From Gaetbulibacter sp. S0825 (lineage in GTDB: Bacteria > Bacteroidota > Bacteroidia > Flavobacteriales > Flavobacteriaceae), in NCBI RefSeq assembly GCF_011777505.1, contig NZ_JAATJT010000001.1, positions 186,001 through 250,000 on the forward strand: a stretch of 64,000 nucleotides of DNA. Reading direction: 5' to 3'. Below, piece by piece: positions 52,940 to 63,827 of the stretch. The number at the start of each line of letters is the position of its first letter. Position 1 is the first letter of the stretch. The notes beneath the pieces were generated by a model. It ran no database searches and was not told the origin of the DNA. It saw only the letters and a program-made list of their open reading frames with translations. Position numbers and translations under genes: made by a program.

Positions 52940-53236
52940 TTACTTATCACTTGCGTACAGTTTTTCAGTTGCCTTTTTTAGATTAGCCAATGGTAAAAAT
53001 TGATCTGCTATTGTTAAGATAGCATGCAAGTTATCGCGTAATCTATCTAACTTAATTTCTTCTGGATTAATCGATGTTTGCAAAAGGTGAAGTGCCATAT
53101 CTGCTAGAAGGATGCGTTGTTTTTCTAACCATTCATTGTCATCTTTATTAGCAGGATTATTCAAGTAACTAGTTTCAACTAAGCTATGTAATTCCCAGCT
53201 GGTTTTTAACATTTTTAATTTCTCATCTTCCGTCAT
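52940..53236 (-). CDS. Hypothetical protein, 98 residues
   Basis: The product is a small, mostly helical, charged protein without signal or membrane segment. It overlaps the end of the esterase-TPR gene by 14 bp and precedes the serine hydrolase gene by 18 bp, which supports it as a true operon member. No family was recognised. The sequence contains heptad-like leucine spacing (LRDNLHAILTIADQFLPLANL) that may form helical bundles. Confidence 0.7.
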   Translation of the reverse strand: MTEDEKLKMLKTSWELHSLVETSYLNNPANKDDNEWLEKQRILLADMALHLLQTSINPEEIKLDRLRDNLHAILTIADQFLPLANLKKATEKLYASDK

Positions 53237-54482
53237 CTTTTTTAATTTTAAGCATTTTTAGTTCTTTATCTAACCCCTCTATAGCTTTTCGATATTCATT
53301 AAAATTAGCATGCATATCAACTAACTCTAACAAGTTAATAGCTTTTTCGTAAGATTTTTTAGCCGCTCTAATATTATTATTCACTTTTTGTGCACGACCT
53401 AGATATGAATATGCTAAGTGTGATTTTGGATATAACTCTATCCAATATTGGTATAATTCAACCGCTTCATCAACTCTTTTTTGCCCCAAAAGTCTCCTTC
53501 CAATATTTTTAATACAACTCATGCTGTACAATCTGTCCATAGTAGGATAGATACTAAAGCCATACTCCTTAGAAAGTCCTTTATAAAACATATTAATGTT
53601 TTCTTTAGCATTACCTGATTGAGAAATTAGATCTTGGTAATTAACAATCCATTTCTCTTTAGGAAAAATGAAATTAAAAGCAGAAATTAGTCCTGGTAGT
53701 GCAACATCAGTATGGCCTTCACCTTTAATTATTTCGGCTATTGTTTTAAAATTAATAGAGTTTAACTTTGATAATCTTTGATTGAAATTATGAACATTGT
53801 CTTCAATATCTGGTTGATCTTCTAAATCTTTTCCCCCTGAAACGATGTAAAGAAATCCATTACGAGATGTGTTTTTAGCAGATACCTTTTCAATTACATC
53901 AATAAGTGTTTCTCCTTTTTCATATCCATCTCCAATAATGTTACCTGAGGCTAGTGCAATGTGTGCTTGAAAAAGATCTGGGTTATTAGAAAACATATGT
54001 AACGTAAATACCGACGAAGGAGAGAAGCCAATTAATGTTTTAAAATCCGCTAATCTATATCTGTTCTCTAATTCAGGTAGTAACTCATCGCTCAAAAATT
54101 GAGTAAACTCATCTTGGTGATTGCCATAGCCGTAATTACGATTCTTTATATTATCATAAAGATTTGGAGCATAGAATGCTCTATGCATTTTCCCTTCTTC
54201 AATTGTTACAATAATAGATTCTGGCATTCTTGAGATTGCACTTAACTGATTTACCAAAGCCGTAACCGTAGAAAAAAGGAATTGATTATCTAAAACAACA
54301 ATTATAGGATAAGATTTAGTTGAGTGATCATACCCAACAGGTAACGCTACTTTTATTGTTCTAGTTTCATCTAATGATTTAGAATCAATGTCGAAAGAGG
54401 CAATTTTATTTTGAGCCTCTATTTGAAGAACAGTGGTTATAGTAAAAATTATTATAACTATAGAGATAAAGTTCTTTTTCAT
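53223..54482 (-). CDS. Secreted esterase (alpha/beta-hydrolase fold) with C-terminal TPR, copy 1
   Basis: I start this gene at ATG 54482 (MKKNFISIV) since the longer frame overlaps the previous gene; 419 residues result. There is a signal peptide, then an esterase-D-like domain (PF00756) with SYPIIVVLDNQFLF, nucleophile region IGFSPSSVF, GGKDLEDQP and EGHTDVALPG (His). A C-terminal TPR module (about residues 330-400; YQYWIELYPKSHLAYSYLGRAQ) follows. A paralogue with the same domain order lies at 61553-62737. It starts 8 bp after the HMBD hydrolase gene and is the second gene of the operator-A operon. The substrate is unknown. Confidence 0.87.
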   Translation of the reverse strand: MKKNFISIVIIIFTITTVLQIEAQNKIASFDIDSKSLDETRTIKVALPVGYDHSTKSYPIIVVLDNQFLFSTVTALVNQLSAISRMPESIIVTIEEGKMHRAFYAPNLYDNIKNRNYGYGNHQDEFTQFLSDELLPELENRYRLADFKTLIGFSPSSVFTLHMFSNNPDLFQAHIALASGNIIGDGYEKGETLIDVIEKVSAKNTSRNGFLYIVSGGKDLEDQPDIEDNVHNFNQRLSKLNSINFKTIAEIIKGEGHTDVALPGLISAFNFIFPKEKWIVNYQDLISQSGNAKENINMFYKGLSKEYGFSIYPTMDRLYSMSCIKNIGRRLLGQKRVDEAVELYQYWIELYPKSHLAYSYLGRAQKVNNNIRAAKKSYEKAINLLELVDMHANFNEYRKAIEGLDKELKMLKIKKDDGR

Positions 54483-54489
54483 TATTTTT

Positions 54490-55614
54490 TTATTTGTATA
54501 AAAATTCTCCAGCTGCATCTCCCATCAACCTGTAATTATGACCAATTCCTGCAATTATTTTAAGTTCCCAGTTAAATTCTGCGTCAAGTCTTTTTGCTGT
54601 TTCTTTGACTTGTTCAAAAAAGAATTTTCCCCTTTCTAGTCTATGGTATCCTTGTTTATCAGCACTTTTTGATTGTAAAAAACTTCCCCCAGTTTCATTT
54701 TCATTGTCGAGTTCTCCCAGAAAAACAACCAAATTTTTCTTAAATGCTATTTTCAATGCTTCTTCATCCATTGGTGTGTCGTTTAATCCAAAAGGATAAT
54801 TTTGATCAAAATCAAGTAAGGTGTAGAAACTTGCATTGGAGGCTAAAATTTTGTCAGCTTTAGAATTCTTATGAAAAATCGCAAGTCTGTGTAAAATATG
54901 TCCTCCAGCAGAGTGTCCAAAAAGATTATATGATGTTTGGTTAGACTTAAGTACTTTAACAGCGGTATCAAATATGCGGTCAAAATCATTAAAAATCCAT
55001 TCGTTTGCATTTGGATTAGAATCGAACGTTAATTTTTCTTCAAAGAGTTTTATTTTATTAGTGTTTTCAACGCGTTCAATGCAGTCATTTAAATTGGAAT
55101 TTTTTATTAGCCCACCTAAATGATACTCATCAAAGCTGTACTCCTCTTTTGGGTACATTGGTGATAGGATTAAAAGGCTATGTTTTTCAGATGCTTCAAC
55201 CCACGAGTCTCTATAGGTATTGGCGTTTCTTCCAGCTCCCGGAATTACTAGTAAAATTCCTGAACCTGTTGTGAAACTTTCCGGTTTATGATAATATACT
55301 TCGATGGTTTTCTCTACTTTACCTTGTCCTCCTTCAACAACAAAGTATCCTGAACCAGTTTTAATGTCTATATTATTTATGGCTAATTCTTTTTCAGGAA
55401 CGAGATTGTTCTTTTTTATGAGTTCCATACTACAATGAGGGCAATTTCCAGATTCTGAAAATATTAACTCATCGCATTCTAAATCACAAGGTGTGCAAAC
55501 GTACTCTTCCTTTTCAGTTTTGCAGGAATAAAATATTAATATAAAAAATAGCAGAAATAAATATTTAATCTGCCATTTTTTAAAAATTGAATCATTTGTT
55601 TTCATAATCCTCAT
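54490..55614 (-). CDS. HMBD lipoprotein fused to alpha/beta hydrolase
   Basis: The 374-residue protein has a lipoprotein signal (FFILIFYSC), a heavy-metal-binding-domain-like knuckle (about residues 38-66; YVCTPCDLECDEL with CPHCSMEL) and an alpha/beta hydrolase domain of about 290 residues: LLVIPGAGRNANTYR, nucleophile elbow FGHSAGG, and GIGHNYRLMG for the His. The metal-knuckle part is almost identical to that of the peptidase-like gene at 57891. It is the first gene of an operon running down to 49710 and is preceded by operator A and a TAGCTTTG -7 box. Start may be the second Met. It is likely anchored in the outer membrane. Confidence 0.85.
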   Translation of the reverse strand: MRIMKTNDSIFKKWQIKYLFLLFFILIFYSCKTEKEEYVCTPCDLECDELIFSESGNCPHCSMELIKKNNLVPEKELAINNIDIKTGSGYFVVEGGQGKVEKTIEVYYHKPESFTTGSGILLVIPGAGRNANTYRDSWVEASEKHSLLILSPMYPKEEYSFDEYHLGGLIKNSNLNDCIERVENTNKIKLFEEKLTFDSNPNANEWIFNDFDRIFDTAVKVLKSNQTSYNLFGHSAGGHILHRLAIFHKNSKADKILASNASFYTLLDFDQNYPFGLNDTPMDEEALKIAFKKNLVVFLGELDNENETGGSFLQSKSADKQGYHRLERGKFFFEQVKETAKRLDAEFNWELKIIAGIGHNYRLMGDAAGEFLYK

Positions 55615-55663: not shown

Positions 55664-55727
55664 CAAAGCTATTACTCATCATTTGTATCTATTTGTTCTA
55701 AATGAAATACAATTTGTTCGAAAAGGA
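55664..55727 (-). promoter_or_regulatory. Composite operator-promoter A
   Basis: On the minus strand CCTTTTCGAACAAAT (55712-55726) and TCATTTAGAACAAAT (55691-55705) are direct repeats 21 bp apart. A -7 box TAGCTTTG (55664-55671) follows 19 bp after the nearer repeat. The usual -33 motif is missing, as expected if an activator bound to the repeats recruits polymerase. Confidence 0.8.
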
Positions 55728-55815
55728 TTTTTTAAAAAAATCAGCTGTTATGATCTAATATCAATTATTTTTTGCCGTTCTTCTTTAGTCATCACTACAA
55801 TTTAAATCAGCATAG

Positions 55816-57162
55816 TTATTCTTTATTCCGAGGTCTACCTTTATCTCCCCCTTGTTCCAGTGTAACCTGTTTACCATCTTCTGAAAAAATAAATGATATA
55901 GACTCCGCATACATCTGTTCTAAAACAAAGCGATTTTCTCCTCTATAAATTAAAGGAGCTTTAAATTCGTTTTTTATAAAATTAATTAGAGTATTATTTT
56001 CTTGTATAAATACAGACTTATCGTTTGGATCACTTTGAGAAACATAAACACCAACAAATTTCTTCAACTCATCTTCTGATATTGCTACAGGTGCATCTCC
56101 TAGAAACAATTTTAGTATTTCAGTATATATTTCGTTAATATCCATTTTCGAACCGTTTGAAATTAATGTAAAAGACAAATTCTCCTTAGAAAAATAGATT
56201 GAAGTCGCTCTAAATTCATCAATACGTCCTCGATGCCCAAATCCCTGTCTGTCATTAGTTGTATACCTAAAAAGCCCCATTCCATACCTATCTTTTATAG
56301 TTTTCATTAAAGTTAGACTTTCTGTTGAGAGCATTTTTCCAGTAAGCAAGCCTTCAAAAAAACTATTTAAATCTTTTGGTGTTGAAACTATTGAGCCAGT
56401 TCCTGTGGCAGTAGACAAATCCGTTTCAGGAAATTCAGTCCATTTTTCATTATAGTTGTATGAATAGGCTTCATTATTATTTATATTAATTTCTTTTCCT
56501 GAATATGTGTTTTTTAAATTAAGTGGCTTACAAATTTTCTCTTGCAAAAGGTTTTCATAAGAAGTGTTATACGTTTTCTCAAGAATTAGTGCCAATAAAA
56601 AATAATTAGAATTGCTATATTCTCCTTTACTATTTGGTTCAAAGTCACTTTCATACTTAGAAATTTTAGATAGCATTTCTGTAGATGATATATACTTGGT
56701 ACGATTGTCAAAAAACCATTTATCTTTTGTAAAACTATGGATACCACTTCTGTGCTGTAATAACTGAGCAATGGTAATCTTATTCGCATTTTTCACATTC
56801 GGAAAATAGCTTTCTATAGTTTTGTTTATATCTAGCTTATTTTCTTCAATAGCCTTAAAAATTAGTGTCGCTGTAAAAGATTTAGTAACAGAGCCTATAC
56901 GGTATTTTGTATTGGCACTAGCTTTCTTTTTTGATTTAATATCACTAAAACCAACAGTGTTTTCGTATACTGTTTTTCCATTTTGAGAGAGTATAATACT
57001 TCCCATAAATTCATTGTTTTTATCATAAGCTTCTAATAAGCTGTCGATTTTAACTTGATAGGTGTCTGGTTTTTGCTTTTCCGATTGAACAGATTTATTA
57101 TTTTCTGAACAAGAAAATAGTAGTGCGATGAATGCTACTATTAGTAAAGTTTGTTTTTTCAT
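55816..57162 (-). CDS. Serine hydrolase lipoprotein (class C beta-lactamase fold)
   Basis: This 448-residue protein has a lipoprotein signal (FIALLFSC) and the penicillin-recognising fold: nucleophile Ser91 in GSVTK, YSN in EYSNSNY and HRG in GHRGRIDEF. A C-terminal beta domain (about 350-448) follows. It starts with a 4-bp overlap with the MarR gene, so it is translated with it. The MarR regulator may control it or sense its product. Beta-lactam resistance is possible but not more likely than peptide or ester hydrolysis. Confidence 0.9.
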   Translation of the reverse strand: MKKQTLLIVAFIALLFSCSENNKSVQSEKQKPDTYQVKIDSLLEAYDKNNEFMGSIILSQNGKTVYENTVGFSDIKSKKKASANTKYRIGSVTKSFTATLIFKAIEENKLDINKTIESYFPNVKNANKITIAQLLQHRSGIHSFTKDKWFFDNRTKYISSTEMLSKISKYESDFEPNSKGEYSNSNYFLLALILEKTYNTSYENLLQEKICKPLNLKNTYSGKEININNNEAYSYNYNEKWTEFPETDLSTATGTGSIVSTPKDLNSFFEGLLTGKMLSTESLTLMKTIKDRYGMGLFRYTTNDRQGFGHRGRIDEFRATSIYFSKENLSFTLISNGSKMDINEIYTEILKLFLGDAPVAISEDELKKFVGVYVSQSDPNDKSVFIQENNTLINFIKNEFKAPLIYRGENRFVLEQMYAESISFIFSEDGKQVTLEQGGDKGRPRNKE

Positions 57163-57596
57163 TTTTTACAGTTTTGATTGATTTTATTTAATATGTGTTT
57201 TAGATTATTTATATCTTCGATTGTTAGATTATTTAATGCCGTTTCTCTATTCTGGTTTATAATAGGTATAAGTTGCTTTAAAGCCAATTCTCCTTTAGGT
57301 GAAGTTTTTAAAACAGATGCTCGCCTGTCATTTTCGTTAGTAGTTTTTATTAGGTAATTTTTTTTAACCATTAATCCGATAATCCTCGTCATTGAAGCAT
57401 AGTCTTTAAATATTAAATCGGCAATTTCTGTTTGGGTTAGTTGTTTGTCATTTATCATTTGAAGTATTAAGGCTTGGTCAACAGTAATGTCTGATATCGC
57501 GTTTTTAATTTCTTTTAGACTTAATTTTCGATAAGCTTTTATTGTTTCTTCTATCGAGTAGAAAATTGTGTCAAAAGGAGTGTGTGAAATCTTCAT
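57159..57596 (-). CDS. MarR-family transcriptional regulator
   Basis: The 145-residue protein has the MarR winged-helix layout: LILQMINDKQLTQTEIADLIFKDYASMTRIIGLMVKKNYL and RRASVLKTSPKGELALKQL as wing and dimer region. MarR proteins respond to small lipophilic or phenolic ligands. It is the first gene of a two-gene unit with the serine hydrolase and has operator B upstream. It could repress its own promoter, but no separate palindrome was seen there. Confidence 0.92.
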   Translation of the reverse strand: MKISHTPFDTIFYSIEETIKAYRKLSLKEIKNAISDITVDQALILQMINDKQLTQTEIADLIFKDYASMTRIIGLMVKKNYLIKTTNENDRRASVLKTSPKGELALKQLIPIINQNRETALNNLTIEDINNLKHILNKINQNCKK

Positions 57597-57645
57597 TTGT
57601 TAGTGTCTTTACAAGCGAAAAAATAATAATACTTGATATATCAAG

Positions 57646-57709
57646 CAAAACTATTACTTGCCATCTATATCAATTTGTTCTAAATGGAGAACAATTTGTT
57701 CGAAAAGGA
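57646..57709 (-). promoter_or_regulatory. Composite operator-promoter B
   Basis: On the minus strand CCTTTTCGAACAAAT (57694-57708) and CCATTTAGAACAAAT (57673-57687) lie 21 bp apart, followed after 19 bp by TAGTTTTG (57646-57653). Operators A and B agree almost base for base over both repeats. Confidence 0.8.
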
Positions 57710-57777
57710 GTGTTTCATAAAGATTAATCCTAACCTATTTGCAATATGAAAAATGTTATGATAAAAAAATTGATATT

Positions 57778-58874
57778 TTAATACTTGGTGTTAATTCCCA
57801 AAGCTTTATAAAAAAAAAGGTGTTTTGGACGTCCCTTTTTTTTCCATTTAAAATCCCATAAAGCTTTTCCTGGATCGAAATATTTAGATACTAGTATGGT
57901 CTCAGAGTTATATATATATATGTATTAAAAAACTCAGTATAATCAATACCTGAGGTGATTTTTATGCCATTAATAATATCGGTAGTGTCATACAATTTTT
58001 CTGTACGTAGAAAATTTTCATATAACCACTTCATCAAATCATCCAAACTTTTTTCATTATTTGTTTTAGATCTAATATCGACATCTAAAACCATAGCTGT
58101 TATCCAACCTCCGTGATATACCAAAAAGAAGTTTTCAAATTTTGTTTTATCATCAACTCCTGCAGTACGCATTGAAATATTCCCTAACCCTTTTGATCCC
58201 GTGTAATACCCTAAAGAAAGGGCTGAAGTTGACAACATTTCTTCTGGCGAAACAATTCCCATTCTAACAGCTGTTTGAAATGTGTAAAATTCAGAAAACC
58301 CTTCATTAAACCAATGTTCTTCTCCATTTTTATAACGGATCGTTTCACCATTCCATAAATGAAAAAGCTCGTGCATTAACACCGTTTTCCATGATCCATA
58401 TCCTAAAGTGTTGTTCTCAGACCAATTGAACATAATAGATTTAGCGTCAGCTTCTCCGCCGGAATCATTTGTTTTTTTAACCTTAATTGTGAAATCTGCA
58501 TATGTAGCATCTAATGTATCTCTTGGATTCCCACCAAATAAATCTTTATAAAAAGTGAATGACTTAGTAATGATCTCTGTAAATTCAGCTTCTTTTTCTA
58601 ATGACTCTTCATCTAAAAACTTATAGTTAATTTTTAAATCGCCAGAAATTATGGTTTGGTTCATTTTTTCTAAATCGCTTTTTTTAATGAGCGCCATATT
58701 ACAGTGAGGACAAATTCCAGGTTCTGAAAATATTAACTCATCACATTCTAAATCACAAGGTGTACAAACATAGTCTTCTGTTTCAGATTTACAAGAGAAG
58801 ACTATAATGGTAAAAAAGAGTAGAATACTAAACTGTTTCTTCAATGATTGATAGCTTGATTTTAATGTCTTCAT
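57778..58874 (-). pseudogene. HMBD lipoprotein fused to M1-like gluzincin peptidase, frameshifted at a (TA) tract near the C terminus
   Basis: The uninterrupted frame runs 58874-57891 (327 residues): lipoprotein signal (FTIIVFSC), HMBD knuckle (YVCTPCDLECDEL, CPHCNMAL) and a gluzincin domain with HELFH and WFNEGFSEF (zinc Glu about 18 residues later), as in M1 aminopeptidases. It ends in a meaningless TLRPY after FFNTYIYI. At this point the DNA holds (TA)6; with one TA less the frame reads on as YNSETILVSKYF...WDFKWKKKGRPKHL..FFYKALG to a stop at 57778, which looks like a natural C terminus of this family. So it is either phase-variable, a recent mutant, or a sequencing error. The A8 and T9 tracts in the same tail are further slippage sites. 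Operator C lies upstream. Confidence 0.75.
57909..57921. repeat. Dinucleotide tract (TA)6T at a frameshift position
   Basis: Six TA units lie at the point where the M1-like gene changes frame. Such tracts are known to slip in length during replication. A length of 5 or 8 units would restore the long frame. Confidence 0.7.
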
Positions 58875-58926
58875 AATTTTAATTTTAATAACTCTGCACT
58901 AATAGAGTTTAACTAATACTACGATT

Positions 58927-58990
58927 CAAAGATAAAATGAAAAATGAGCAGTAATTAATTCGAAGCGTATTAAAATTTATTCGAAAAGGA
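58927..58990 (-). promoter_or_regulatory. Composite operator-promoter C
   Basis: On the minus strand CCTTTTCGAATAAAT (58975-58989) and the weaker ACGCTTCGAATTAAT (58954-58968) lie 21 bp apart, with TATCTTTG (58927-58934) 19 bp further. It drives the HMBD-M1-like gene. Confidence 0.75.
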
Positions 58991-59045
58991 TTGTTCTATA
59001 TTTTCTTTGTCCATAATAGTTCTTTATGAGCAACTACCTTTACTT

Positions 59046-59849
59046 TTAATAGCTTTTGGATGTGAAGGATTTATGAATTATTTTCCATTCATTTTTAATT
59101 TTCAATAACAATAAATAATCAATTGCTATCCTATTTCGGTCAGGCATTATAACTTGTACTTTGGCAAGACCTGCATTATTTTCATAATCCAATGATAAAA
59201 CATTCCCTAATCGGTTGTTTTTTTTGCCTTCTTTAAAGTTTCCGATGTATTGATTTCCTGGAATGATGCTCAGATTGTCATCTTTTATATAGTATAAATT
59301 GAAATCTTGGTGAAATGCCTTTCTTAATTTATTGGGTTCTCCGTTTGCTGTTCCGACAATGTAGTTTGACAAGGTTTCTTTGATTTCTTCTAACCCCTCT
59401 TTTTCAATAGAAACTAAATCTTCTACTTTATGATAATTTTTAAGGTTTATAATCTTGTGTAATATTTTCCACTGCCCTTTTATTTTTAGAAGCAAAAGAT
59501 AATCCGTTGCTATTCTTTTTGTGTCAGGAAAATAAACTTCAACTTTTACAGAAGCGGCATCGTTTTCATAATCAATAGATATGATTCGTCCTATTCTGTT
59601 ATATTTTTTCCCCTTTTCAACTCTTTCAATATAACCATTCCCATCTATAACCCTTAATGTGTCTCCCTGTACTATAAATAGATTAAAATCTTTATGAAAT
59701 GCTTCTCGTACTTCGTCAGGATTGCCATTTGCTGTACCCTCTATATATTTCATCACAGTAGAATTAATTTGCTCTACTTCTGTTTGTGAATTTAGTTTTA
59801 ATATTAAAATAAAATTAAATGCTAAAAATATTATTAATGCTTTTTTCAT
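59046..59849 (-). CDS. Secreted protein with two tandem NTF2/SnoaL-like domains
   Basis: The 267-residue protein has a signal peptide (IIFLAFNFILILKLNS) and two homologous halves (about 25-140 and 150-267). Each has a YI.GTANG.P.(E/K)(V/L)R.AFH.DFNL block and a later (V/A)KV.V..PD..RIA.DYLLLLK.K..WKI.HK block, as in putative lumazine-binding (DUF4878/SnoaL-like) proteins. This internal duplication is obvious by eye. Function unknown. It is a single-gene unit; a MITE-like repeat lies directly upstream. Confidence 0.85.
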   Translation of the reverse strand: MKKALIIFLAFNFILILKLNSQTEVEQINSTVMKYIEGTANGNPDEVREAFHKDFNLFIVQGDTLRVIDGNGYIERVEKGKKYNRIGRIISIDYENDAASVKVEVYFPDTKRIATDYLLLLKIKGQWKILHKIINLKNYHKVEDLVSIEKEGLEEIKETLSNYIVGTANGEPNKLRKAFHQDFNLYYIKDDNLSIIPGNQYIGNFKEGKKNNRLGNVLSLDYENNAGLAKVQVIMPDRNRIAIDYLLLLKIKNEWKIIHKSFTSKSY

Positions 59850-59881
59850 GTTTATTCTTTTTGTTTATTGTTTTTCTTATT

Positions 59882-60009
59882 ACTAACGGTCTCGTGTATA
59901 ATAGTAGCGGATTTCTTCTCACGAACCTTTCGGTTTTGCACTGACCTTTGTTTTATGTTTATACTTTCGCTTTATTGCTTAAACCGCTATTACTTATTCA
60001 CATTGTTAG
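59882..60009. mobile_element. MITE-like element with imperfect terminal inverted repeats
   Basis: The left arm CTAACGGTCTCGTGTATAAT..AGCGG (59883-59910) and the right arm CCGCTATTACTTATTCACATTGTTAG (59984-60009) are imperfect inverted copies, about 127 bp end to end, with no coding capacity. The ends CTAAC/GTTAG match. It sits between two same-strand genes. Non-autonomous miniature elements have this build; the parent transposase cannot be identified. Confidence 0.55.
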
Positions 60010-60017
60010 CAAATGTT

Positions 60018-60947
60018 TTATTCTATTTTTGCATTGAAGAGTACATCAGCGTTTACCCAATAAACTTCCCCTTTTTCAACACCTGCCCATCCTTTTTTTG
60101 CAGGGTTATTATATCTTCTGGAGTAGATAAAATATTTTCCGTCAGAAGACATATACGGACAATAATAGCGCCAGTTACTTTCATATTTTAATGGTATTTC
60201 TTTCGGTTTTGTCCATTCACCATTATCATTAAACGTTATTTGAAATTTACCTTGTCCATTAGTAATGGCATACCGCTCATCTGGTGAAACATAGGTTATT
60301 AGTTCCTTTTTCTTTGTCTTAGTGTTTACGATAACAGGTGTTTCAAATTTTTCATTTCCTAAATATTGTGCACGATATGTGTTCATTCCTCCTTCATCAC
60401 TTGGTCTATTTGAGCGAAAATATAAACTCCCATCCGCCGTAACAACAGGATAGGTTTCTAAATATTCGGTGGAAACCAAAAAATCCACTTTAGAGGCTAA
60501 TTCCCATTTACCGTCCACTTTTTTACTTTTATAAATGTCTGGTGGTATCGTGTAAAGTTCTTCTCGGGTAACATCATTTTCATAAAGCTTAGGGTCTACA
60601 CCGAGAAAATACATTGTCTTTCCATCTTTGGTAATTGTGGGGTCACAAGCAACTGAAACTAAGACATTATCGTCATACATTTTAATGGGTTTAATGTCAG
60701 ACCACTTGTCATTAATTAATTCAGAATGGTGAATAACAAAGCTGTTGTCCACAATTCTTGAAAAGAACATTTCTGTATTGTCATAATTAAAAACTACATT
60801 AAGTTCGATATTGCTAGTATTAACAATAGATGGTGCAAATAATTTAGGAATTGTAGAAGGAGGTTCTTGGTCGAAATATGAAATAGTGTTGTTCTTACAA
60901 CTAAAAAATGTTACAATGATTAAGAAAAGTGATAAAAATTTATTCAT
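60018..60947 (-). CDS. PD40/TolB-like beta-propeller lipoprotein, copy 1
   Basis: This 309-residue lipoprotein (signal IIVTFFSC) contains repeated WD40-like PD40 blades: NYDNTEMFFSR, TKDGKTMYFLG, TADGSLYFRSNRPSDEGGMNTYRA, SPDERYAI and SSDGKYFIYSRR. These form a propeller used for protein or ligand binding, often associated with peptidases or Tol/Pal-type lipoproteins. It begins with an ATG at 60947. A second member with the same organisation is at 62767-63714. Confidence 0.9.
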   Translation of the reverse strand: MNKFLSLFLIIVTFFSCKNNTISYFDQEPPSTIPKLFAPSIVNTSNIELNVVFNYDNTEMFFSRIVDNSFVIHHSELINDKWSDIKPIKMYDDNVLVSVACDPTITKDGKTMYFLGVDPKLYENDVTREELYTIPPDIYKSKKVDGKWELASKVDFLVSTEYLETYPVVTADGSLYFRSNRPSDEGGMNTYRAQYLGNEKFETPVIVNTKTKKKELITYVSPDERYAITNGQGKFQITFNDNGEWTKPKEIPLKYESNWRYYCPYMSSDGKYFIYSRRYNNPAKKGWAGVEKGEVYWVNADVLFNAKIE

Positions 60948-61089
60948 TACTGTTAAAATGTTTATTAACTATTGTATAACCGTTACTTATATGCTGATAC
61001 TTATAACCCTATTTTAATCAACTTGTAATAATACCCTGGTTGAAGTGTCTATCCATTTAAATGCTATATTGTAAAGCTCATAATTTTGT

Positions 61090-61560
61090 CTACCAGTATT
61101 CTTTAATCTTAATAATCTTACCGTCTTTAAATTCAAAAACAGCCATTTGTTCTTTTCCTTCAACAGTTTTTCCGTCTTCTTTTCTTATAAATCGCTTAGT
61201 AACCGCAATAGCATTTAGCCCTATAATCTTACTGGTCACCTTTATATCAACTGTTTTACCATTATAAGAGCCTTTTTCTTGGTTACGTTTATAGCCGTTG
61301 TAAAGATTCTCTCTCGTATAAACACCTCCACATTTAGGGTGTACATAGGTAAAGTCGTCCGTAAAAAGGTTGAATATATTATCTATGTCCTTGATAGTCG
61401 AACCTGACTGAAATACTTTAAGATTTAGTTCATAGTATTTATCTAGTATCGTATTTAAAGAATCTTTATGGCTCATCTTTACTTCTTGGGCATTAATTTG
61501 CCCAATTGAAAAAAGAACTAATACAATTGAAGAAATATTTATTACAGTTTTTTTAATCAT
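61090..61560 (-). CDS. Secreted SnoaL-like/DUF4440 protein
   Basis: I start at ATG 61560 (MIKKTVINI), overlapping the esterase stop by 8 bp; 156 residues result. It has a signal peptide ending in GQINAQ and one NTF2-fold domain: LNLKVFQSGSTIKDIDNIFNLFTDDFTYVHPKCGGVYTRE is recognisable, with EQMAVFEFKDGKIIKIKEYW at the end. It is the third gene of the operator-D unit. Function unknown. Confidence 0.82.
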   Translation of the reverse strand: MIKKTVINISSIVLVLFSIGQINAQEVKMSHKDSLNTILDKYYELNLKVFQSGSTIKDIDNIFNLFTDDFTYVHPKCGGVYTRENLYNGYKRNQEKGSYNGKTVDIKVTSKIIGLNAIAVTKRFIRKEDGKTVEGKEQMAVFEFKDGKIIKIKEYW

Positions 61561-62737
61561 TGTTCTTATTTTTTGAGAGTTCAATGGATTTTTTTTCAGA
61601 AAGCTCAGCTTTTATAAGCTCATTAATACTTATATATGCTTCAGAAAGTCTTTTATGTACAATTGAAGAGTTCGGGTAATAACTAACAGCTAATTCTAGG
61701 AGTTCAACCAGTTCTGGATAACGCTTACTGCTTTTTAACCGACGTCCTATACCTAATATATTTCCAATAAAATAAAAAGAGTCTTCGTTAGGAATAATAT
61801 CGAAGCCATATTGTTTAGACAACTTTTCAAAATAGTGTTTTATCGTTTTTGCAGGGTTTTCTGCATTTCTAAATGATTTATAAGGAATGTTCCAAACATT
61901 TTTAGGGTAAATGGTCTCTAATCCGTGCTGTATCCCTGGAACAGACATTCCATAATGATCTTCCTCTTCTAAAACTTCTATTTTATACTTGAAATTTTGA
62001 GGATTCAATTTTTCTAATGCCTTATTTAAATTAGTATATGCTTGGTTTTCTTCTATAGGCCTATTCAATAAATCTCGTGATGCTTTCCCTATATATAAAG
62101 AGTTTCCTGAATGTTTTCCAGATTGTATTGAAGCAAAGATTTGATCTTCAATTGTTTTCCCATTACTCGTATACTGTGCCAATTCAGATGCCAAAACAAT
62201 ATACCCTTTAAACAACGTTGGATCACTCCAAAATGCATCTAAAACAGGTCCAAAAGTTGGTGACATTCCAATAATAGTACGATGTGAATTAGCACGATAC
62301 TTTTTTTCAATAAAAGAAATAACCTCATCTTTTAAAAATGCTACATGTTCTTTGGACTTACCTCCATAGCCACCAAAAAACTCGCGCCCTTCTTTATTTT
62401 TTAAAATAAACGCCATGTCATTTCTTTTACCAGTGTTATTAGTAATCCCAACAATAATACTTCTAGGCATGTAATTTCTTTCTGCCCTTATTTTTACAAT
62501 GGACTGAGTTAGGTCAAATAAAAATTCGGCATCCATGACATATATAACAGGATAGTCATGAATGTTTCTATCGTAATTTACTGGTAGAGAAATAAGTAAT
62601 TGCCTCTCTTCATTAAGGATTTCAGATTTTATAAAAAGTTGTTTTCCTTTAATATAATCTGCCTCTGTTACCTGAGCAGTGGCATTACTTATTATTAGGT
62701 AATTAAGTAATAATAAGCATATTTTAATATACTTCAT
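61553..62737 (-). CDS. Secreted esterase (alpha/beta-hydrolase fold) with C-terminal TPR, copy 2
   Basis: The 394-residue protein has a signal peptide (ICLLLLNYLIISNATAQ), an esterase-D-like domain (DYPVIYVMDAEFLFDL, nucleophile region IGMSPTFGP, EEDHYGMSVPG for His) and a TPR-like tail (ELLELAVSYYPNSSIVHKRLSEAY). It is the paralogue of the gene at 53223-54482, with the same domain order. It lies 29 bp after the PD40 gene and so belongs to the operator-D unit. Confidence 0.87.
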   Translation of the reverse strand: MKYIKICLLLLNYLIISNATAQVTEADYIKGKQLFIKSEILNEERQLLISLPVNYDRNIHDYPVIYVMDAEFLFDLTQSIVKIRAERNYMPRSIIVGITNNTGKRNDMAFILKNKEGREFFGGYGGKSKEHVAFLKDEVISFIEKKYRANSHRTIIGMSPTFGPVLDAFWSDPTLFKGYIVLASELAQYTSNGKTIEDQIFASIQSGKHSGNSLYIGKASRDLLNRPIEENQAYTNLNKALEKLNPQNFKYKIEVLEEEDHYGMSVPGIQHGLETIYPKNVWNIPYKSFRNAENPAKTIKHYFEKLSKQYGFDIIPNEDSFYFIGNILGIGRRLKSSKRYPELVELLELAVSYYPNSSIVHKRLSEAYISINELIKAELSEKKSIELSKNKNND

Positions 62738-62766
62738 TTTTTATGATTTCTTTTAAGTAAAGGTTT

Positions 62767-63714
62767 TTAGTTATTGCTTCTATTCTCTAGTAGTTCTTTT
62801 TTTAAATGCATAAATTCTACCCAATAAATATCTCCATAATCATCTTCTCCTCTGTGAAAAAATAAATACTTCCCATCGGGTGACACACTTGGAGTCATTT
62901 CAGTTTGATCAGTATTTATTTTAGGGCCCAAATTATAAGCTTCTGTCCAAGTACCGTTATTATTGAAACTGATGTACAAATCATTATCCCCATATCCTGA
63001 ATTGCTTTCACCATCATAAATAATATAGCTTTCGTCTGGTGCAATATATGGGTGAGCGATGTACTTTCCAGAGAAGTTTATTTCATTCCCCATTCTCTTA
63101 GCACTTCTATATTGACCTTCTTCCTTAACCGACTTATAAATAACCCAATCTTCTGGTTTATCTCCTTTCTCCCCAGAAGTATAATAGAGATTGCCATTCT
63201 CTGAAGATGTTAAGTACATTACAAACCTATCTACTAAGGGTTTTTCTATGGGTATTGGTTGACTCCAACCGCTTTTGTTCTTTTCGCTATACCACTGATG
63301 CAATCCACTTGGTTGAATCGTATCATTAAAAGGTCTTGTACTTCCAAAATAGAGTCTATTACCTTTAGGGTTGATATGAGGTTCAAAATCCCATCCTTGT
63401 TTTGCTGAAAAAAAAGCCAATTCAGGTTTTGTCCATTGACCATCAATTAATTTCATGGCATAAATTTCATTGTTCTCTTCTGGTTTACGGCGTGTGTAAT
63501 ATATTTCGTCCATTTCTGGATTGAAGGTGATTGCGAACTCATAATCGTCAGTTGAAATAACACCTTGCCCAAAAACTAAGGGAATATCTGTTGGGATTTG
63601 ATCGCTGAATAAGGTAAGGTTTGATTTTTTACTGTCCTGACAAGAAATAATAAAGACTAGCAGGAAAGTCAAAACGGATGGAATTTTTACTTGTTTCATA
63701 TTCTTAGTTTTCAT
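62767..63714 (-). CDS. PD40/TolB-like beta-propeller lipoprotein, copy 2
   Basis: This 315-residue lipoprotein (signal LLVFIISC) has PD40 blades: NPEMDEIYYTRR, NPKGNRLYFGSTRPFNDT, SSENGNLYYTSGEKGD, APDESYIIYDGES and SPDGKYLFFHRGEDDYGDIYWVEF. It is the first gene of a three-gene unit (PD40, esterase-TPR, SnoaL-like) preceded by operator D. The propeller probably acts as a surface binding scaffold for the hydrolase encoded with it. Confidence 0.9.
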   Translation of the reverse strand: MKTKNMKQVKIPSVLTFLLVFIISCQDSKKSNLTLFSDQIPTDIPLVFGQGVISTDDYEFAITFNPEMDEIYYTRRKPEENNEIYAMKLIDGQWTKPELAFFSAKQGWDFEPHINPKGNRLYFGSTRPFNDTIQPSGLHQWYSEKNKSGWSQPIPIEKPLVDRFVMYLTSSENGNLYYTSGEKGDKPEDWVIYKSVKEEGQYRSAKRMGNEINFSGKYIAHPYIAPDESYIIYDGESNSGYGDNDLYISFNNNGTWTEAYNLGPKINTDQTEMTPSVSPDGKYLFFHRGEDDYGDIYWVEFMHLKKELLENRSNN

Positions 63715-63763
63715 TGACTATTGAACATTTGAGAATTTATTCAATTTAAAACAATTTCTAAAG

Positions 63764-63827
63764 CAAAGATGGGTTATAAAACGGGATTCGTTTAGTTCGA
63801 AAAGGAGTAGTATTTGTTCTAAAAGGA
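63764..63827 (-). promoter_or_regulatory. Composite operator-promoter D
   Basis: On the minus strand CCTTTTAGAACAAAT (63812-63826) and CCTTTTCGAACTAAA (63791-63805) lie 21 bp apart; CATCTTTG (63764-63771), a near-match to the -7 box, follows after 19 bp. It drives the PD40 copy 2 unit. Confidence 0.75.

Follow-up and report, generated by a model that had tools for sequence, protein, structure and literature searches.

Four composite promoters of one fixed geometry in a flavobacterial genome and their tie to a cupin-AraC-type regulator

The stretch of DNA analyzed here (the window) comprises 64,000 nucleotides (nt) of the 3.16-Mb genome of Gaetbulibacter sp. S0825 (G000:C3:186001-250000), and towards its end four promoters carry the same composite element, in which two direct repeats precede a -7 box of the TAnnTTTG type. 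These composites, all on the minus strand, had been described in an original prediction made from the letters of the window, and a letter-by-letter reading confirmed them. The repeats are 16-mers of the type TCCTTTT(C/A)GAA(C/T)AAAT, with first bases at 63827, 58990, 57709 and 55727; the start-to-start distance between the two repeats is 21 base pairs (bp) in all four sites, and 19 nt lie between the end of the second repeat and the box (CATCTTTG, TATCTTTG, TAGTTTTG and TAGCTTTG) in all four as well. From the end of the box to the start codon there are 50, 53, 50 and 50 nt for the genes at 63714, 58874, 57596 and 55614, respectively.

By direct reading of the minus strand, site S1 is made up of the distal repeat TCCTTTTAGAACAAAT (63812..63827), the proximal repeat TCCTTTTCGAACTAAA 21 bp after it (63791..63806) and, 19 nt further on, the box CATCTTTG (63764..63771), the whole composite reaching an E value of 5.6e-7 in the whole-genome scan reported below. 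Site S2 contains the distal repeat TCCTTTTCGAATAAAT (58975..58990), the proximal repeat TACGCTTCGAATTAAT (58954..58969) and the box TATCTTTG (58927..58934; composite E 4.2e-6), and is the weakest of the four owing to its second repeat. Site S3 consists of TCCTTTTCGAACAAAT (57694..57709), TCCATTTAGAACAAAT (57673..57688) and the box TAGTTTTG (57646..57653; composite E 2.1e-11), while S4 has the same distal repeat as S3, TCCTTTTCGAACAAAT (55712..55727), followed by TTCATTTAGAACAAAT (55691..55706) and the box TAGCTTTG (55664..55671; composite E 3.8e-11). A -33 element is missing, as had been stated originally: among 93 related sites from other genera, just 3 have TTG in that region. The 19-nt spacer differs from the repeats in base composition (51% G+C versus 29%); a 5-bp hairpin stem is found in 5 of the 93 spacers versus 2% of shuffled sequences, and the mean fold energy is -1.24 kcal/mol for the spacers versus -0.74 kcal/mol for the shuffles.

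The genes behind the four sites are mostly hydrolases. Site S1 precedes a gene for a PD40 propeller protein (62767..63714, minus strand), followed by genes for a putative esterase (61553-62737) and a DUF4440-like protein (61090-61584). Behind S2 lies a gene for an M61/M1-type peptidase-like protein with an HMBD motif (57891..58874, minus strand). Site S3 stands before a MarR family gene (57159..57596, minus strand) and a gene for a beta-lactamase-family serine hydrolase (55816-57162), and S4 before a gene for an alpha/beta hydrolase-like protein (54490..55614, minus strand; Pfam match below the cut-off) and one for a further putative esterase with a weak TPR match (53223-54518). Judging their N termini by eye, the serine hydrolases among the targets are apparently exported. 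The proteins behind S2 (57891-58874) and S4 (54490-55614) share a similar lipoprotein-like opening with a C-T-P-C-D-L motif (HMBD in the first, according to Pfam) and differ in their C-terminal enzymes.

The whole genome was scanned with a profile, R1, of 68 columns, built from 93 gap-free sites of other genera (109 sites reduced at 90% identity) and containing no sequence from Pontimicrobium, the genus of the window. Six sites were found at E values of 1.3e-12 to 4.2e-6, the next match being at 0.022, and all six fall in one 14-kb cluster that holds the four sites of the window and two more just past its end: a fifth at C3:250677-250738 (L033:1737), before a CHMI-like gene, and a sixth at C3:255380-255446 (L033:6443), directly behind an AraC gene. 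A 60-nt composite pattern with up to 3 mismatches likewise gave six matches in the genome, all between C3:241664 and 255442, and none when reversed. A strict pattern for the repeat dimer matched three times in the 3.16-Mb genome without mismatches, each time inside the window, and a fourth time at C3:25842 when one mismatch was allowed. These results place the composites of this genome beyond chance. In other genomes, strict dimer matches in G074, G080, G091 and G100 were taken as chance and set aside because the -7 box at 19 nt is missing; three of the four lie inside an open reading frame.

The AraC gene next to the sixth composite (C3:255449-256303, equal to L033:6450-7304) is on the minus strand, as are the sites, and encodes a protein of 284 amino acids. 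No AraC or LytTR regulator gene had been seen beside the sites in the original prediction because the window ends short of this gene, which lies 5.4 kb beyond it. Pfam places the C-terminal AraC/XylS domain (PF12833, HTH_18) at residues 207-283 (E 2.4e-17); in the 284-residue protein it finds AraC-type helix-turn-helix (HTH) families only, with no kinase or receiver domain, and has no match over the N-terminal sensor part. In an AlphaFold model (mean predicted local distance difference test score [pLDDT] 86.7; predicted TM-score [pTM] 0.60) two HTH motifs follow a beta-rich, cupin-like sensor/dimerization domain at residues ~1-130, as in the AraC subgroup. Structure searches returned AraC-type domains for the DNA-binding part (Z up to 15.1) and, for the sensor domain, BgaR (Z 10.2), ExsA (9.5) and AraC (8.0-8.5), with RhaR within Z 8 to 10. 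The full-length relatives found by Foldseek were ToxT, Rns and CsvR, with poor global superposition (root-mean-square deviation, 17-19). Cys28 and His78 occur in 117 of the 117 orthologue rows that have a residue there, and Cys88 in 113 of 117; cysteines 28 and 88 are the only ones in the protein of this genome. Given Cys28, His78 and the redox/aromatic character of the operon behind the gene, our working guess is that the protein may sense an electrophilic or aromatic compound in a thiol- or metal-dependent manner. The genome has ten HTH_18 matches, nine of them above the cut-off, and at its nine other AraC loci the composite profile scores below zero. One of these other genes (L033:8625-9446) is close by and was considered as a candidate regulator; it was rejected, its locus (L014) having no composite and its protein falling outside the orthologue group. 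Together with an adjoining gene that has no Pfam match and an isochorismatase-family gene, this second AraC gene occupies L033:8625-10983, past the window.

The orthologue group of the 284-residue protein is sharply bounded, with 56 of 397 Flavobacteriaceae genomes matching at E of 1.4e-69 or lower and the next genome at 3.4e-31. In a draw across the phylum an orthologue was present in 12 of 395 genomes, 10 of them in the family of the window, so the distribution is patchy. A scan of named genomes gave 70 AraC loci, of which 69 were kept (L171, a Photobacterium paralogue with 31% identity, was left out); besides many Flavobacteriaceae, they include records labelled Cyclobacteriaceae, Saprospiraceae, Lewinella and Roseivirga. 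With a pattern for the repeats only, tolerating 4 mismatches in 19 letters and not containing the box, a dimer was found no more than 600 nt 3' of the AraC stop codon in 51 of the 69 loci. In 48 of the 49 unique sites among these 51, a box matching in at least 5 of 6 letters stands at exactly 19 nt, while each other offset from 8 to 27 occurs in at most 1 of the 49; the core of the second repeat peaks at a spacing of 21 bp (5.8 of 7 letters). A position weight matrix (PWM) built from the 49 sites, which include one from the sister species P. aquaticum (L102) and none from the window, located a composite within 2.5 kb 3' of the gene in 67 of the 69 loci, the 16 additional ones lying about 1.1 kb downstream, and had no match in the reversed loci.

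Extended to 118 unique orthologue sequences (from 137 AraC matches), the search gave a composite within 2.5 kb 3' in 112, in 79 of them no more than 20 nt from the stop codon, and the box of these 112 sites matches at 5 or 6 of its 6 positions in 111. Orthologues held out of the training had a composite in 7 of 7 cases: one belongs to a different order of the class, one to a different class of the phylum, and the other five (L245 to L249) to a genus that contributed a single training site. In these five, the final codons and the stop of the AraC gene are overlapped by the first operator repeat (near position 2358), which therefore also encodes the C-terminal tail of the AraC protein. The co-occurrence of an AraC gene with the motif in related genomes, which had been proposed as a way to find the regulator, was borne out: the 60-nt pattern is present in 45 of the 56 genomes with an orthologue versus 18 of the 341 without (Fisher's exact test, 4e-34, not corrected for relatedness). 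Of these 18, 16 have 3-mismatch matches only, and the 11 orthologue genomes that the pattern missed each contain a weaker composite; the reversed pattern, used as a control, matched in 23 of the 397 genomes, 3 of them with an orthologue. The operator has a rigid and conserved geometry and is closely tied to this AraC orthologue group.

In AraC/XylS class II activators (AraC, XylS and RhaS), the half-sites are about 21 bp apart with the proximal one at -35, and AraC and RhaS combine a cupin domain with a double HTH. The present system resembles them in having a cupin and a double HTH and two direct half-sites 21 bp apart; the difference is that its site precedes the Bacteroidota TAnnTTTG -7 box at 19 nt. 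We consider it very probable that the four composites are class II-type promoters activated by the 284-residue cupin-AraC protein, each serving as a tandem operator for a dimer. The AraC/XylS reading, one of two offered originally, is upheld by the two direct half-sites at 21 bp and by the tie of the site to the orthologue group. A dimer of the regulator would bind with one monomer on each of the two 16-bp direct repeats, both monomers facing the same side of the helix at a distance of two turns. PMC9723704 places the sigma-A box at -12 to -5, which would put the proximal repeat at about -47 to -32 and the distal repeat at -68 to -53. At about -47 to -32 the proximal monomer would stand in place of the missing -33 element and could recruit the sigma-A RNA polymerase to the TAnnTTTG box. 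The regulator would thereby switch on the operon right behind its own gene, and in Pontimicrobium and some relatives the regulon may have taken in hydrolases, a MarR protein and CHMI-like and lumazine-binding-like genes. Binding, dimerization, activation and the start sites are what we infer from these sequences; the promoters fit activator dependence.

The nearest published parallel that we found is provided by the hybrid two-component systems (HTCS) of Bacteroides. For HTCS, the predicted operators consist of direct repeats whose tandem sites lie 21 bp apart on average, and the HTCS_Man motif has two 16-bp sites with a 5-bp spacer (PMC3878776); the DNA-binding domain of HTCS is described as the AraC/XylS HTH_18 (PMC11253607). 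The likeness thus extends to the phylum, to an AraC-type DNA-binding domain and to the measure of HTCS_Man, which equals that of the present composite. On the other hand, HTCS are membrane histidine-kinase hybrids for polysaccharide use, whereas the present regulator has a cupin-like sensor and other targets, and no fixed distance to a -7 box was found in the passages of PMC3878776 consulted. Taking the operator geometry and the HTCS parallel together, the account with the best support is that of a dimeric class II activator of the AraC type. The structural relatives ToxT, Rns and CsvR share the architecture of a cupin with an AraC DNA-binding domain; they differ in organisms and targets, identity is about 10-15% in the full-length Foldseek alignments, and a shared fold is no proof of function. 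We know of no description of the orthologue group, the operator sequence or the targets in this form. In openly readable papers a literature search found neither the orthologue group nor the regulon described, nothing on DUF5367 and no paper bringing together at least three of anthrone oxygenase, Bacteroidetes, AraC and NmrA; among the papers listed for the letters CGAACAAAT with AraC, and for DUF1772, AraC-family and NmrA proteins in flavobacteria, titles and the openings of abstracts showed nothing on the regulon. The system probably belongs, as an undescribed member, to the AraC/XylS tandem operators, a known kind of control system.

At letter 8 of the distal core, 93 of the 112 sites have C (GAAC type) and 19 have T (GAAT type), and this letter varies with residue 266 of the regulator: Gly266 accompanies all 19 T sites, and none of the 92 proteins with Ser266 has a T site. 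In the model, residue 266 belongs to the last recognition helix, that of the second HTH (H265-276), and it aligns with the second Q of the SQQ of Rob. In a quick tree made from residues 1-195 and read by parsimony, residue 266 has changed on four occasions and the base on three, every base change falling on a lineage that had changed residue 266; in random pairings of the three supported pairs, the base followed in the same direction in 2.4 and in the opposite direction in 0. If the covariation is true, the C-terminal HTH would read the promoter-proximal part of each repeat, as it does in the half-sites of AraC-type activators.

Several points weigh against this reading of regulator and operator. 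With respect to specificity, the 93 C sites include one with Gly266 (L179) beside the 92 with Ser266, and the held-out L243 also combines Gly266 with C in its distal repeat, which means that T is allowed by Gly266 but not required. The base is tracked equally well by residue 136 of the sensor domain and nearly so by 259, 209 and others; several residues covary alike since 16 of the 19 T sites come from a single clade, and with only three base-change events significance is out of reach. A strict covariation of residue 266 with the operator is weakened by L179, L243 and the equally covarying residues. With respect to linkage, 6 of the 118 orthologues have no 3' site on the same strand: in four (L194, L208, L209 and L210) the composite is present in the locus on the opposite strand, in L161 it is 7.8 kb off, and in L159 only 738 nt of contig remain. 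With respect to the scans, (i) the 60-nt pattern was drawn from the sites of this genome, after sites of three relatives had been seen; (ii) profile R1 matches in 56 of the 56 orthologue genomes at E of 1.2e-5 or lower and, at that level, in 1 of the 341 others, a figure that is partly circular because many of the same loci trained R1; (iii) the E values of R1 are rough and optimistic, as 18 of the 341 orthologue-free genomes match at E up to 0.001 and a simple repeat in one of them (G437), the single match counted under (ii), reaches 2.5e-6; and (iv) in assigning orthologues to the 397 genomes, at most six candidates were scored per genome.

Other regulators can be weighed against the cupin-AraC protein. 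LytTR sites also consist of two direct repeats about 21 bp apart, with a unit of about 9 bp, and since the genome has nine LytTR genes, a LytTR-family regulator, the other reading offered originally, deserves attention for its similar centre-to-centre distance. It is very improbable: the nine LytTR loci, with 1.5 kb of flank on each side, hold no composite (best profile score below zero at each), the conserved unit measures 15-16 bp, compared with about 9 bp for LytTR, and the presence of the composite follows the AraC orthologue group. We give equally little credit to the MarR protein behind S3 acting on the TTCGAA-like part of each repeat. Its gene lies directly behind S3, and a MarR gene lies behind one composite in G088 (L200), but these are the only two composites beside which one is seen; none of the 12 clusters with at least 3 members, among 280 genes at 73 composites of other genomes, is MarR-like as judged by opening letters (with Pfam on part of them), and rigid direct repeats before a promoter lacking -33 would suit an activator better than the palindrome of a MarR protein.

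A more searching alternative is that the composite is a promoter or leader feature of the core operon, the AraC gene being a mere neighbour and another, unlinked regulator acting on it. For the most part the AraC gene, the composite and the operon adjoin one another, and linkage cannot by itself tell the AraC gene from the operon. Genomes in which the two are separated can: a search with the NmrA protein in 254 genomes gave 48 at E of 1e-50 or lower, and the composite is present in all 37 that also have the AraC orthologue by profile (30 of 37 by pattern) but in none of the 11 without it by either method. Unrelated genes at a distance from the operon are preceded by composites too, as on a different contig in G088 (L200), and the covariation in the specificity helix points, weakly, in the same direction. 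We regard this alternative as improbable, though less so than a LytTR or MarR regulator. Least probable of all is that the four sites of the window are copies of one duplicated promoter, kept without selection. Sites S3 and S4 do appear to be copies of each other, agreeing at 34 of 37 letters in the repeats and at 13 of 19 in the spacer, and are not independent sites; the proteins behind S2 and S4 have similar opening stretches. But the remaining 14 spacer pairs among the six sites have just 3-7 of 19 letters in common while their repeats are alike at 24-30 of 37, and the same combination of conserved repeats with a varied spacer extends over the 93 sites of other genera, a conservation that largely refutes duplication as the sole cause.

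The operon behind the regulator in this genome encodes a DUF5367 protein (PF17329), an anthrone-oxygenase-like protein (Anthrone_oxy, PF08592) and an NmrA-like oxidoreductase (NmrA, PF05368; its TIGR03649 match is below the cut-off). The same three gene clusters lead behind the 73 composites of other genomes (53, 50 and 60 members). ChrI, involved in chryseobasin maturation, was the best NCBIfam name for the anthrone-oxygenase-like protein and was rejected, scoring far below the cut-off (138.9 of 275 bits). The original idea of one regulon stands; its description as a regulon for surface hydrolases stands in part, in that serine hydrolases recur as accessory targets, while the conserved core is the DUF5367/anthrone-oxygenase-like/NmrA operon.

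A survey of the stretches fetched found 16 further composites (PWM score of at least 27) before non-core genes, including L033:1737 of this genome; L034:19694, which has lost its box, and L161:16687, where the next gene lies off the locus, were left out. A Pfam-confirmed serine hydrolase is among the first two genes in at least 7 of the 16 places (L105, L108, L200, L201, L205, L206 and L238), and such accessory hydrolases recur in five genera. Other places, where some of the gene names rest on sequence likeness, have a CHMI-like gene (L033 and L204), a lumazine-binding-like gene (L036 and L204), an HMBD-type protein (L036), a short esterase-like frame (L034), a weak DUF2938 match followed by a deaminase (L237), FMN reductase-SnoaL (L240) or, following a box that is imperfect, an ABC-transporter-like gene (L239). 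The MarR/beta-lactamase pair of G088 and its composite (L200) are on a different contig from the AraC gene. The hydrolase theme is real but secondary.

More than 100 orthologues here link a single regulator with a single operator and a rigid promoter spacing. As far as we know, operators have been predicted for few activators of Bacteroidota other than those for polysaccharide use, and there is little documentation of how activators are placed on TAnnTTTG promoters. The regulator, its site and a candidate specificity residue lend themselves to direct tests in harmless marine strains, and they offer a way to seek a function for DUF5367 and the anthrone-oxygenase/NmrA operon. A bolder view, which we hold to be possible but doubtful, is that the system may be a conserved stress or detoxification switch of Bacteroidota, in which the cupin-AraC protein, with its invariant cysteine, would sense an electrophilic, quinone-like or ester compound, drive the anthrone-oxygenase/NmrA core pathway and recruit hydrolases lineage by lineage by means of the 64-bp composite, gained at little cost, and that a tandem AraC-type operator 19 nt before the box, in place of -33, could be a standard Bacteroidota architecture.

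Some sites depart from the usual arrangement. At L034:19694 (genome G001, equal to L035:1694) the dimer of S4 recurs with an identical 19-nt spacer, the -7 box is gone (TATAATTC) and another gene follows; it looks like a remnant operator stripped of its promoter. In two genomes of one genus, tandem composites 226 bp apart precede the core operon (L173 at 3679 and 3905; L175 at 3796 and 4022). At core-operon sites the letters just past the box are conserved (about TC.TGTAA) and the start codon usually follows 24-26 nt on, whereas the accessory genes of the window start farther from the box (50, 53, 50 and 50 nt).

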